From assembly GCA_016763645.1 (NCBI GenBank), contig JAESTK010000005.1, positions 1-37,810 of the forward strand: a stretch of 37,810 nucleotides of DNA, given 5' to 3'. Under the pieces are notes generated by a model. The model saw only the letters and a list, made by a program, of their open reading frames with translations. It was not told where the DNA came from and did no database searches. Positions within the stretch are counted from its first letter, which is position 1. Each line of letters opens with the position of its first letter. Source of the DNA: Flavobacteriales bacterium (GTDB taxonomy: Bacteria; Bacteroidota; Bacteroidia; Flavobacteriales_G; NORP312). Shown one piece after another: positions 9,851 to 14,627 of this stretch. The translations under genes and the position numbers were made by a program.

Positions 9851-11944
9851 TTATTCCTCGTCCGTTCTAATGGTTTGTGCTGCTTGAGTTGGTGTTCTTC
9901 TTGGTTGCCCTGGTCTTGCTTGTGGTCGCCTTGCAGGTAAACTTAACAGCAATCTGTTTTGTTTGAATTGACTCAAGCTCTCAAAAAGTGGCCCGACAAT
10001 AGGAAATCTATTTTTAATCTGGCTTACTGCAACCTCTGTTGGCCCGCCTCCTTGGAACCTTCCTGGTGGTGGCTCTCTCAATGCTGATATCTCTCTCATT
10101 CTAGATAAAAATGCTCGTTCTTCAGCATCGAAAAGTACGATAAGTTTTCTATCTAACTTATCTAAAGTTTTTTCAAGCGCTGCACGGCTTAGTGATTGCG
10201 TAACGCCATCCTCCCTAACTGGCCCGGTGAAAGATAACTCTCTTATCCTGTCAACCGTTTGTGCCTTGATATCATTCCACGCTTGCTTGCCTTTTTCAGT
10301 TTGATTTAGATAAGAACGTAGCTGGTTCAAATCATCTCTACGCCATTTTTTAGCAAATACAACATCATCTATAAACGTGTCAGGGCTGACTTTATTATCA
10401 AGCATGTCCCGCACAAGGTTAGATTTTCTTTTGTCGAATTTACTTATCTGAGCGCGTGATAATCCTTGTTCAAATTCTCTCTTTGCTGATCTTGCAACAT
10501 TGAATACGTCACCGCCAGATTGTTTCAAAACATCATCATCAAGGTTGTTTTTTAATTGTCTTGATAACTGCCTACCTCTATCGGTAACAGAATCAAAAAG
10601 AGCGTTTATATCAATCCTGATTGCTTCGGCGGTTTCCACAGAAATTCTACCTGCAACACGACCATCTTTGTCAATTATACCTCTTGATTTGAGGTTATTC
10701 TTGACTGAGGATATCAACCCACCGCTCACATTTTCTTCACCGGCAAATTTTCTTAAACTTGAGGCAAGGCTGTTTAGCTTGATATTTCTCTCTGTTGGGG
10801 CTGCTTCTCGTGCCTGACGATATAAATCACTTATCTTTTCATCCAGCACAATAGAACGATTCAACACCTCATCAATTGGCGTTGATGTCGATGTAACAAC
10901 ATTGCCTTCAGTATCCAATGCTCTTTGTTCAAAAGCACCCTGCAACCTGGCTTCCTGTTGTTCCAATCTGGCGGCTATTGGTCCATCTGGATCAGTCTTA
11001 GCGATAGACTGTTGTTCCTGAAATTCTTTGGCGTTCCTGGTCACTTGAGCTCGCGTTGGTATCAAACCCTCAGCTTCTAAAGCGGTACGTCTTGCTGCTT
11101 GCTCTGCGGTTTCTTCGGTACCCCTAACGGCATTCCTAATTGATCTACCCAAGGCTTCTGCGGCAGGCTGAACAACTTCGGCAGCCGCACCCAAGCCAGC
11201 GGCAAGACCAACCTGCTGAGCGTCAAAGGTACCACCAGCGGCTTCCTGTGTTGCTTGTATGGCTGTTTCAGTGACACCGGCCCCAGCACCACCAGCCAAA
11301 GCCCTAACACCTGTTGGTGATGCCACTTGTCGCCCTATCAATTGAGATACTGCGGCTGGTGCAGCTTTGGCGGCCATTGATGTGGGGGTGAATGCACCCA
11401 CGACACCAAGACCTTGTAAGATATCAATAGGTGATATATTTGGTTTATTTAGGCTTGCGAACTCGCCAGTTCTTCTATTTTGGGCAATCGTTTCACCCTC
11501 TGGAGTGGTAACAACACCTATGAAAGGAAATTGGCTGGTTAACTGTTGGCCAAACTCCGCAGGGTCAAATGTGGTTAACCCAACCAATGAAGTAATAAAA
11601 GCATCTTGCCTGGAAACATCACCCCCAAGGAATGACTGTACACCGCCGGATGTTATCTCAGGAACAGCTTCAATTCTCGCCAACCTTACACGCTCGGTTT
11701 GTTCGGGGGTTAAGTCTGCAGAAGTTATTTCACCAGCTTCAAAACGTGTTAATAAATCCTGTGTTCCTTGTCCTTCCTGCCTAATTGCTTGCGCTCTGGC
11801 TGGTCTGCCTATTTGACGTGGCTGTGTTGTTTGTACTGGCTGGTCAATCTGTACAGGATCGGCACTCGCAGGCTGAGCGGTAGATAAATCGAATCCACCA
11901 CTCTGAGATGCTACTGGTTGAGCCGTAGACAGATCAAACGCCAT
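9851..11944 (-). CDS. Large ejection / internal virion protein (P22 gp16 position)
   Basis: A 697-residue protein. The N-terminus has two near-identical motifs (AFDLSTAQPVASQSG, GFDLSTAQPASAD), then Gln/Arg-rich sequence. Residues 130-270 are Ala/Gly-rich with weakly hydrophobic helices (ILQGLGVVGAFTPTSMAAKAAP, GLAAGLGAAAEVVQ), and a long charged coiled-coil region fills 290-640. Size, composition and position directly before the tailspike match the third ejection protein of P22-like phages, which enters the host envelope during DNA delivery. It abuts the next gene upstream with a one-base stop/start overlap. Sequence identity to gp16 cannot be claimed from reading alone. Confidence 0.65.
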   Translation of the reverse strand: MAFDLSTAQPVASQSGGFDLSTAQPASADPVQIDQPVQTTQPRQIGRPARAQAIRQEGQGTQDLLTRFEAGEITSADLTPEQTERVRLARIEAVPEITSGGVQSFLGGDVSRQDAFITSLVGLTTFDPAEFGQQLTSQFPFIGVVTTPEGETIAQNRRTGEFASLNKPNISPIDILQGLGVVGAFTPTSMAAKAAPAAVSQLIGRQVASPTGVRALAGGAGAGVTETAIQATQEAAGGTFDAQQVGLAAGLGAAAEVVQPAAEALGRSIRNAVRGTEETAEQAARRTALEAEGLIPTRAQVTRNAKEFQEQQSIAKTDPDGPIAARLEQQEARLQGAFEQRALDTEGNVVTSTSTPIDEVLNRSIVLDEKISDLYRQAREAAPTERNIKLNSLASSLRKFAGEENVSGGLISSVKNNLKSRGIIDKDGRVAGRISVETAEAIRIDINALFDSVTDRGRQLSRQLKNNLDDDVLKQSGGDVFNVARSAKREFEQGLSRAQISKFDKRKSNLVRDMLDNKVSPDTFIDDVVFAKKWRRDDLNQLRSYLNQTEKGKQAWNDIKAQTVDRIRELSFTGPVREDGVTQSLSRAALEKTLDKLDRKLIVLFDAEERAFLSRMREISALREPPPGRFQGGGPTEVAVSQIKNRFPIVGPLFESLSQFKQNRLLLSLPARRPQARPGQPRRTPTQAAQTIRTDEE

Positions 11945-13050
11945 TACTGAACCTCTTCAAACGTGCCATCAGGAAAAACCATGGCTCTATTGCCTTGAGC
12001 ATCAATCATCAATTGACCACCTTGGCGTGCCTGACCACCCCCAGAACCTTGATCTATCCCCAATTTAGCCCTTACGATGGCATCGATATTTTGTATCTTG
12101 GCTATCCTTGCGGCTTTGGTGTCTTTTCGTGTGGGGATCATTTCATTTAATAACTTTTGATCTTGATCAGTAAAGGTACCTTCACCGGCACCCCTAAATA
12201 ATTGCTTTAAAACTGGAGACATAGCAGCAACGGCACCTTCTGCTATTTGTGAGTTAGTCGTAAGAGCAGGAAGCCAGCCTGCAACTGGACCGGTTACAGT
12301 GCCACCGAGCGCCGTAACTAAGCCGCTCATTGCTGTGTCATAGACTTTTAGAGTGGTGCTATTGGATTTCTGATCAGCAATGGCATCGATTTCAGCTTTA
12401 GCACCAGCCACAGCGGTAACCACTGCTGACTCAATTTCTGGTTTTAGCTTTAACTGTTTGATTAATTTAGCTTCTTCCTTGGCTCCTGCAATGGTTGCTT
12501 CTGTTATTGCCACGTCTGCTGCAGTGCCTTTATCGGTTATTGTTTGTACTGCTGAACCGACGGCTCTTGGTTTTATTCCGGCATCGATTAGCCTTTTTTG
12601 TTTAATCTGTTCAGGTGTCAAGCCTTTGGTTTCAACAGCAAATTTTTGCTCTGCAGCGGTTAACTTTGCTGGATCAGTAATAAATCCCTCTGTGGTGGTC
12701 GAAACAGCCTGTAGATTTTCCCTGGTCATTTCTGCTGGAATCAATTGGGGAATACCGAATTCTTTCAAACCAGGATTCAATAACGCAGCAGCCCTTGGCC
12801 ATTCACTTTCTGGTAATTTCAGCAAGGCATTAGCTGTCTGGTTCATTATCCTAAACTTACCAATAGCCTCTTTTTGGCCTGATGCTGCGGCTCCTCTGCG
12901 AGCCTCCCCAAGCTCCAGCGTCGCCAATTCATTTCTAACAGGTGCAGCTCTGGATTCCCTGTCGATAGCTTGTTCTTTTGAGCGTATTCCTAGTGCATTT
13001 GTTCTTGCACGCTGGAAATCTTCAACAGGTTTAAAAGACTTAAAAGGCAT
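11944..13050 (-). CDS. Ejection / internal virion protein (P22 gp20 position)
   Basis: A 368-residue protein, mostly helical and rich in Ala, Lys, Glu and Gln, with coiled-coil stretches (about 25-65 and 165-215) and a loose Gly/Gln-rich C-terminus. Position between a small hydrophobic virion protein and the large ejection protein, together with composition, matches the second of three P22-type injection proteins. AGGTGA lies upstream of the ATG. The family cannot be fixed by motif. The long + strand ORF over this gene is an antisense shadow. Confidence 0.6.
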   Translation of the reverse strand: MPFKSFKPVEDFQRARTNALGIRSKEQAIDRESRAAPVRNELATLELGEARRGAAASGQKEAIGKFRIMNQTANALLKLPESEWPRAAALLNPGLKEFGIPQLIPAEMTRENLQAVSTTTEGFITDPAKLTAAEQKFAVETKGLTPEQIKQKRLIDAGIKPRAVGSAVQTITDKGTAADVAITEATIAGAKEEAKLIKQLKLKPEIESAVVTAVAGAKAEIDAIADQKSNSTTLKVYDTAMSGLVTALGGTVTGPVAGWLPALTTNSQIAEGAVAAMSPVLKQLFRGAGEGTFTDQDQKLLNEMIPTRKDTKAARIAKIQNIDAIVRAKLGIDQGSGGGQARQGGQLMIDAQGNRAMVFPDGTFEEVQ

Positions 13051-13058
13051 GTTGTCAC

Positions 13059-13730
13059 CTACAAATCAAATACGTTCTGACCGGCTTGGAAAGCTGCTGG
13101 GTCAGATGGTTGCGTGGTTGTGGTGCTTGGCTGGTTAAAGGCCCCAAATGCTGCTGCGGCGTTGCTTATGCCGCCAGTGATGGCATTTGATTGATTGAAC
13201 GACTCTTGAGCCCTTATATTTCCAACATTGCCCAATAGATTGCCAACGGTTTCACTTGATTGCAATAAACCCGTACCAGTTCTAGCTGCTGCGCTTTCAC
13301 CAACCGTTAATAAGTTAAACAACTGATTGAATCGTTGATTCTGTAATTGCGGAACAACGGTAGATGCCAGCTCTGTATTGAATTGCGTTAAGTCCTGCAA
13401 AGTGCCACCGGCACCAAGCCTACCACCAGCCGCCGCGCTTTCCTGTATGGCTTCAAAACCCTGATCTCGAAGGAAGGAAACTACCGGGTTGATTCGTTCT
13501 AAATCTTGCGTAGGATCAGCAAGCAGGTTCTGTATTTGTTCCCCAGCATCCACGCCGATATTGACAAAAGGATCAAGTATTTCAACAAGTTGGTTTCGTG
13601 CGTCTTCTGCTTCTTGAACTTGCAAAAAGCTAGCATCTACTTGTGCATCTGCTGCATCTGATGCCGCATTACTTTGCACAACACCGCCAACTATGGCGGC
13701 ACCTGCTATTGCTGCTGCTCCCCAAGGCAT
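13059..13730 (-). CDS. Small ejection protein (P22 gp7-like)
   Basis: A 223-residue protein starting with an Ala/Gly-rich hydrophobic helix (residues 4-18, GAAAIAGAAIVGGVV). The rest is helical with repeated Gln/Asn and Ala (QSNAASDAADAQVDAS, NQLVEILDPFVNIG, FNQLFNLLTVGESAAARTGTG). This combination is typical of the first phage DNA-injection protein, and many phage relatives carry the same GGRLGAGGTLQDLTQFN turn. It overlaps the dioxygenase gene upstream by 25 bases in another frame. Confidence 0.65.
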   Translation of the reverse strand: MPWGAAAIAGAAIVGGVVQSNAASDAADAQVDASFLQVQEAEDARNQLVEILDPFVNIGVDAGEQIQNLLADPTQDLERINPVVSFLRDQGFEAIQESAAAGGRLGAGGTLQDLTQFNTELASTVVPQLQNQRFNQLFNLLTVGESAAARTGTGLLQSSETVGNLLGNVGNIRAQESFNQSNAITGGISNAAAAFGAFNQPSTTTTQPSDPAAFQAGQNVFDL

Positions 13731-14293
13731 AACGCGCCCCCCTTACTAAATTTACTTTGGTGTATACAAACTATCATTGCAATTCTGTCTTCATCAGAAT
13801 CATTCTCTACCCAATGTAGCACATCATTCCTAAAGCCAAAAACTTGACCCTCTTCTGGCTCAATGTAACCATCTTCAAAGCAGAACTTTGAACCGGGTTT
13901 ATTCCTTATAGGAACCATGTATTTATCATAAAAAGTGGCATGCCATCCACTATCAATATGTGGTGTTATCTTTCCGCCTGGTGGCAATTTGGTGATAAGC
14001 ACGCCGCCCAATCGATCACCGCATGTAACCTCCATCAATTTTTCACAAATCCCTTTCACTTCTGGTATATCCTTCAACCAAATTGATTCGTGTTCATCTA
14101 AAAATACAGACCAATCACCAGTATCTAAAGAGTATTGTGGATCTTTGAACCTTGCCCAAATATCAACCATTTGACTGTGTGGTGAACCTTCGCTACCACG
14201 TTGAGGGTATTCGCCCCAATAGTCACAAGAGATGAGAAAGTCCCCTAACTCCTCCACATCAAACCTGACACCGATGTCGTTAAACGGTTTCAT
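13706..14293 (-). CDS. Aspartyl/asparaginyl beta-hydroxylase-like dioxygenase
   Basis: A 195-residue protein with the iron-binding facial triad of 2-oxoglutarate dioxygenases: H112-x-D114 (KITPHIDSGWHATF) and H160 (VLHWVEND), plus a later Arg (R170, DEDRIAMI) positioned for 2-oxoglutarate. This arrangement matches the Asp/Asn beta-hydroxylase family, which hydroxylates protein side chains. The substrate here is unknown; a phage virion protein or a host protein are both possible. It overlaps the cupin gene by 14 bases and the small ejection gene by 25, so it is made with the virion proteins. Confidence 0.8.
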   Translation of the reverse strand: MKPFNDIGVRFDVEELGDFLISCDYWGEYPQRGSEGSPHSQMVDIWARFKDPQYSLDTGDWSVFLDEHESIWLKDIPEVKGICEKLMEVTCGDRLGGVLITKLPPGGKITPHIDSGWHATFYDKYMVPIRNKPGSKFCFEDGYIEPEEGQVFGFRNDVLHWVENDSDEDRIAMIVCIHQSKFSKGGALCLGEQQQ

Positions 14294-14627
14294 CTTTGAT
14301 CACAACTCTGTCAACTTGATCCGGGTCTTTTTCATCGGTGGCATGTATGCAAAACCATGTAACGTCCTCTAAAGCAAGGATTTGATGCTCTACCCCTGCT
14401 TTGATTTCAATGCATTCGGGGGCCTCATATGTATCGATGCCCAGATCTGTCTCAACAACACACTTGCCACAAGATAGAATGCTTAAATGCGAAAATTCGT
14501 GTTTGTGTGATACCGCTACATGACCTTTTGGAAGGTGCATTTGCTTGGCATAAACACCATCTGAGAAATGATGAACTATACCTAAATCTGTTTGTTTGCT
14601 ATCTTCTATCAATTTTTTATCGTACAA
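14280..14627 (-). CDS. Cupin-domain protein
   Basis: A 115-residue single-domain cupin. Motif 1 is visible at residues 35-54 (G-H-VAVS-H41-K-H43-EFSHLSILSCG) and motif 2 at about 73-85 (IEIKAGVEHQILA, H81), giving three or four His ligands for a metal. The start is TTG 14627, supported by AGAGG 7-8 bases upstream and no better in-frame ATG. The enzymatic role is unknown. Its overlap with a non-haem iron dioxygenase suggests a shared pathway or a fold reused for virion work. Confidence 0.75.
   Translation of the reverse strand: MYDKKLIEDSKQTDLGIVHHFSDGVYAKQMHLPKGHVAVSHKHEFSHLSILSCGKCVVETDLGIDTYEAPECIEIKAGVEHQILALEDVTWFCIHATDEKDPDQVDRVVIKDETV

Follow-up and report, generated by a model that had tools for sequence, protein, structure and literature searches.

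A phage oxygenase/cupin cassette is linked to the N-terminal proline of the first ejection protein

In a contig assigned to a Flavobacteriales bacterium (JAESTK010000005.1), a small cupin and an AspH-family oxygenase are encoded in the midst of phage virion genes. What do these enzymes act on, and why are they encoded at this place? We analysed the whole stretch of 37,810 nucleotides, hereafter the window, and compared its enzyme pair with those of other phages. A preliminary description of the window had proposed that the pair, inserted among virion genes, may hydroxylate a capsid, tail or ejected protein, with Asp, Asn and Pro named as residues to check.

Results

The enzyme pair directly precedes the ejection genes

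The cupin and AspH ORFs share 14 bp, and the AspH ORF shares 25 bp with the following gene, EJ1 (Table 1). Upstream of the pair lie small proteins, preceded by a head-closure Hc3 gene; downstream, EJ1 is followed by two larger proteins at ejection-protein positions. Thus, the preliminary description had the coordinates and the mutual overlap of the pair exactly right. It had also correctly placed the pair between small tail proteins (the small ORFs after Hc3) and the ejection proteins (EJ1 to EJ3), and had called the metal ligands intact; the AspH iron site and the four His of the cupin are both complete. The two enzyme genes resemble their neighbours in GC and third-position GC.

Table 1. Features of the enzyme cassette and the ejection cluster in the window
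Feature	Position	Strand	Remarks
Small four-His cupin (115 aa, TTG start)	14280..14627	minus	ligands H41, H43, H47, H81
AspH-family 2OG-Fe(II) oxygenase (195 aa)	13706..14293	minus	PF05118; H112, D114, H160, R170
EJ1 (223 aa), proposed substrate	13059..13730	minus	phrog_598 'DNA ejection'; slot of T7 gp14 / P22 gp7
EJ1 codon 2 (CCT, Pro2), proposed modification site	13725..13727	minus	
EJ2 (368 aa), second in ejection cluster	11944..13050	minus	by position; no family match
EJ3 (697 aa), third in ejection cluster	9851..11944	minus	by position; no family match

EJ1 matched the PHROGs 'DNA ejection' family with E=1.5e-27. As expected of a T7 gp14-like protein, it comes first in the ejection cluster and has an Ala/Gly-rich hydrophobic N-terminus. 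By analogy with T7 (PMC8954989, PMC11784390), EJ1 would be present in the virion and take part in a pore.

The T7 gp13-gp14-gp15-gp16 and P22 gp14-gp7-gp20-gp16 clusters also have a small gene directly before the smallest ejection protein, and T7 gp14 itself starts with MCWAAA. In comparison, the small genes, T7 gp13 (PF11090) and P22 gp14 (PF11039), are neither AspH nor cupin. As a separate observation, the T7 core proteins gp6.7 (MCFSPK; L274, 365-631) and gp14 (L179, 1729-2319) have a common Met-Cys-aromatic start.

Both enzymes retain their metal sites

AspH matched the Asp_Arg_Hydrox profile at E=8e-9 (36 bits against a Pfam cut-off of 22.6), and its fold was predicted with a pLDDT of 94. 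All three Fe ligands are kept in 91/91 distinct homologues, and the 2OG-type Arg170 in 84 of these 91. LpxO, which acts on lipid A, belongs to the same Pfam family. Among solved structures, L-proline cis-4-hydroxylase is the top relative of phage AspH in the Foldseek comparison (1e-8) as well as in the profile search (2e-5). Its lead over human AspH (5apa) and nucleoside(-antibiotic) hydroxylases is narrow, their fold matches being only a little weaker. Phage AspH has the fold, the HxD...H motif and the 2OG-type Arg in common with L-proline cis-4-hydroxylase (4p7w/4p7x) and proline 3-hydroxylase type II (1e5r). These known enzymes are metabolic, act on free proline, measure about 280-290 aa and have an extra C-terminal region, whereas phage AspH has about 190 aa, 15% identity to them and a link to a virion protein. 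Human AspH has the same Pfam family and catalytic core, but its targets are Asp/Asn of EGF-like domains, and EJ1 lacks a conserved Asp/Asn. The collagen prolyl hydroxylase of PBCV-1 (5c5t), also a fold match, is likewise a virus-encoded 2OG prolyl hydroxylase; it belongs to another subfamily and modifies internal prolines, in contrast to the N-terminal proline proposed for the phages.

The 115-aa protein matched Cupin_2 weakly (E=0.005, below the cut-off), while its cupin fold was predicted confidently (pLDDT 86), and the model matches small cupins with a double-stranded beta-helix and a His-rich site. All four His are present in 103/106 homologues and are invariant within the intact cupin clade. 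TM1459-type cupins are similar in size, fold and four-His metal site; their identity to the phage cupin is about 16-19%, and the phage branch is fixed beside EJ1. The same cupin family carries the labels 'short tail fiber' or 'tail fiber adhesin' in PHROGs (phrog_24280, phrog_12032) and RefSeq, as does BPP-1 bbp23. The match of the window cupin to phrog_24280 is genuine, yet we reject a fiber or adhesin identity, as the model is a lone globular cupin domain with no fiber or adhesin structure.

The cassette is followed by a Met-Pro ejection protein

Loci were collected by scans of viral contigs and bacterial genomes and from annotated phages. Where AspH and cupin both occur they adjoin, in either order. 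Among 140 non-redundant AspH/cupin cassettes without a GNAT and with a readable EJ1, the next gene was an EJ1 starting Met-Pro in 138. The two exceptions are L107, with Ala, and L273, whose AspH is in the GNAT-type clade. The genes ahead of the cassette differ by locus (Hc3/tail, terminase, endolysin or holin), while EJ1 is constant. BPP-1, DC33, R8W and ctEw122 carry the cassette next to a small gene resembling EJ1, both ahead of a portal-type gene, and EJ1 gene synteny is shared with BA3 and VPMS1. A tblastn search with EJ1 against annotated phages gave no match, EJ1 being too divergent. The pair had been called an insertion, and whether it occurs together in other podophages had been put forward as a check; in other phages it does recur, as a widespread cassette, so a chance insertion does not describe it. 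We found no report of the cassette or of virion hydroxylation in the open-access literature. We conclude that this cassette and its tie to the start of the first ejection protein are real and widespread and, within the open literature covered, undescribed.

No other EJ1 residue is as conserved as Pro2, which occurs in 132/134 distinct sequences. Its entropy across these N-termini is 0.13 bit, against 1.04 bit at the next-best position, and the EJ1 proteins of these cassettes are barely alignable past their start. The remaining ORFs at these loci show Pro2 in 11% of cases. Pro2 of EJ1 is encoded by each of the four Pro codons, and the EJ1 start is mostly clear of the upstream cassette gene. This indicates that selection acts on the amino acid and excludes gene overlap as the origin of Pro2. 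In 89 EJ1 sequences from AspH cassettes, no column held a conserved Asp or Asn at 60% or more, and we therefore rejected Asp/Asn hydroxylation of EJ1.

Position 3 is aromatic in 28/29 AspH-only cassettes, the exception being L273, in 57/67 AspH+cupin cassettes and in 14/38 cupin-only ones; this bias is partly due to shared ancestry. Pro2 occurs in all three cassette types. On the cupin tree, AspH presence flips about nine times with Pro2 unchanged, so that Pro2 is independent of AspH where an intact cupin exists. Among the ten genes near cupin-only cassettes, we found no extra 2OG enzyme. Where the cupin is intact, it may be enough by itself or may take over the task of AspH.

The N-terminus predicts the enzymes

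We also searched in reverse, using a DNA pattern for M-P-W-G-[A/V]-A-A-A starts that made no reference to the enzymes. One additional match, internal to a longer frame, was left out. AspH and/or cupin lay within 1.5 kb upstream of 84 of the 85 usable ORFs (66 with both, 12 with AspH, 6 with cupin). The lone exception, L312 (around 2689), has an MPWGAAAA start and no cassette. We read this ORF, from its sequence and neighbouring genes, as a probable gokushovirus DNA pilot protein, from another virus type with a similar task. Pilot-like proteins of the microviruses L312 and L377 begin with MPWGAAAA or MSWGAAAA, resembling EJ1 of tailed phages; this likeness is possibly a convergence of DNA-delivery proteins. 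Genuine MSW starts in tailed phages numbered two, and there the fourth His of the cupin is replaced by Lys-Arg and AspH is absent.

Starts with MVAAA were found with AspH+GNAT in 55 cases and with GNAT in 3; three more matches were long proteins of another kind. Five related phages (L402, L435, L469, L482 and L505) have a MVAAAVGAAAVVGGVASSA EJ1 with an MVAAA start and no recognised cassette enzyme, apparently through loss or because their enzyme is unrecognised. In L482, an HNH endonuclease-like ORF (723-1370) lies directly before the MVAAA EJ1 gene. Together, L312 and these five phages indicate that such N-termini can function unmodified.

Other proteins occupy the same slot with other second residues

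GNAT cassettes precede proteins with Val, Ala or Gly at position 2; in phages with a GNAT alone, the residue there is Ala, Gly or Ser. N-terminal Ala, Ser, Thr, Gly and Val are usually acetylated once Met is removed, and Pro is not. The presence of these residues in GNAT phages thus agrees with a theme of N-terminal modification. Single-sequence hhalign comparisons of the phage GNATs with T7 gp13, P22 gp14 and T7 gp7 gave no support for homology. The T7-like Pseudomonas phage G11 has a GNAT directly ahead of its gp14 homologue (PMC10142737).

GNAT-type AspHs are paired with Val2, not Pro. In the AspH tree, the GNAT-linked enzymes, together with that of L273, form one group nested inside the Pro-linked ones. 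They retain the iron site, R48, N164 and R170, and replace R32, H39, D44, W46, W72, G97, T101, G116, W117 and C176. The change at R32, H39, D44, W46, W72 and W117 accompanies the shift of EJ1 from MPW to MVAAA, and some of the switched residues probably touch the substrate.

Wherever the order was read, a cupin with lost metal ligands is followed by a Ser/Thr2 protein; in L171, the gene after the cupin starts MSAMITAAVA. On the cupin tree, Pro2 and Ser/Thr2 are separated by essentially one split. The covariation of residue 2 with the metal ligands is thus about one event and the GNAT switch another, and the covariation of cassette with N-terminal residue rests on few evolutionary events.

Four loci (L171, L172, L173 and L176) encode a metal-less cupin that carries a SET-like (methyltransferase) domain at its C-terminus, Pfam SET having been checked for one, before an EJ1-like gene with an MSG or MSA start. 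In BPP-1 (L181, bbp24-bbp22), the portal-type gene is preceded by a GNAT, a metal-less cupin and a small protein that starts MSGAVTAV; bbp12, which begins in much the same way (MSGATSAV), lies within the ejection region of this phage.

Discussion

We tentatively propose, with the chances judged nearly even, that AspH and cupin form a dedicated maturation cassette for EJ1 that modifies its N-terminal Pro. Judging from the sequences, hydroxylation of Pro2 is the most likely modification. EJ1 would be made as Met-Pro-Trp-Gly-Ala..., and the host Met aminopeptidase would uncover Pro as its N-terminus. AspH, as kin of free-proline hydroxylases, would then hydroxylate this residue in the cytoplasm. 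For the four-His cupin we envisage binding to the same N-terminus, where it would serve as an adaptor/chaperone or carry out a metal-dependent step that follows or replaces that of AspH. EJ1 would then be packaged, ejected first and form an envelope pore like T7 gp14. In sister phages, the slot would be taken by a GNAT acetyltransferase acting on a Val/Ala/Gly/Ser N-terminus or by a metal-less cupin with Ser/Thr. Several observations weigh against the proposal: the few events behind the covariation, Pro2 persisting where AspH is absent, GNAT-type AspHs paired with Val2, the MPWGAAAA and MVAAA starts that lack a recognised enzyme, and a fold match to human AspH and nucleoside hydroxylases nearly as good as that to proline hydroxylase.

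The preliminary idea of a virion or ejected target, as opposed to a metabolite, is well supported: the link to EJ1 persists although the gene orders are unrelated, and the reverse search agrees. From the options then listed, the evidence favours the ejection protein EJ1 over capsid and tail. Likewise, it favours Pro, which is conserved at position 2 and matches the proline hydroxylase kinship, over Asp and Asn, which are nowhere conserved in EJ1.

Could the cassette proteins instead be EJ1 chaperones or adaptors that hold the insoluble N-terminal helix until packaging, with catalysis secondary or absent? Metal-less cupins persist in the slot (BA3, VPMS1, BPP-1 and others), so a structural role exists there, and for these cupins at minimum a chaperone role is plausible. 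In T7, Pfam describes the occupant of this slot, gp13, as a probable scaffold protein, and gp14 is insoluble on its own (PMC8954989); both points count for this explanation. A pure chaperone, however, would not need Fe ligands conserved without exception in AspH and invariant His in the intact cupin clade; as a general account we consider it unlikely.

Somewhat more doubtful is that Pro2 is kept for a reason of its own (Met removal, stability or membrane entry), with the enzymes inherited alongside EJ1 in a single module and targeting another virion protein, for instance a tail protein or a further ejection protein. The few independent transitions on the AspH and cupin trees, and the MPW/MSW starts of microvirus pilot proteins that have no cassette, are in line with it. 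Against it, upstream and tail genes are swapped or moved off while EJ1 remains, and Pro2 is found with AspH-only, cupin-only and combined cassettes although EJ1 is otherwise scarcely alignable. A role in auxiliary metabolism, with a lipid or small molecule of the host as the hydroxylated substrate (lipid A, as for LpxO, or free proline), is very improbable: the closest solved relatives of the enzymes are free-proline hydroxylases and the DC33 AspH has been treated as a metabolic gene (PMC12195039), but a metabolic gene has no reason to precede one structural gene in more than 100 diverse cassettes, nor any need for the first eight residues of EJ1 to predict it.

Returning to maturation of EJ1, a broader version appears possible, if rather less probable than not: podophages may have an interchangeable N-terminal maturation cassette, in which AspH and/or cupin hydroxylate Pro or oxidise it in another way, GNATs acetylate Val/Ala/Gly/Ser/Thr and sometimes a SET domain takes part, cassette and residue co-evolving. 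The chemistry at the tip of the pore would then be a regulated feature of phage entry.

The pairing of the cassette with Met-Pro points to a phage that applies a chemical finish to the tip of its ejection apparatus. The labels 'auxiliary metabolic gene' and 'short tail fiber' are probably wrong for the cassette enzymes, and common genes presumed to be auxiliary metabolic or 'tail fiber' genes would be re-labelled as virion maturation enzymes. One peptide, PWGAAA, makes the idea testable. If true, virion assembly would gain a new post-translational step, whose target would be the protein that is proposed to be the first to break through the outer membrane; O2 and 2-oxoglutarate would be required in the host.
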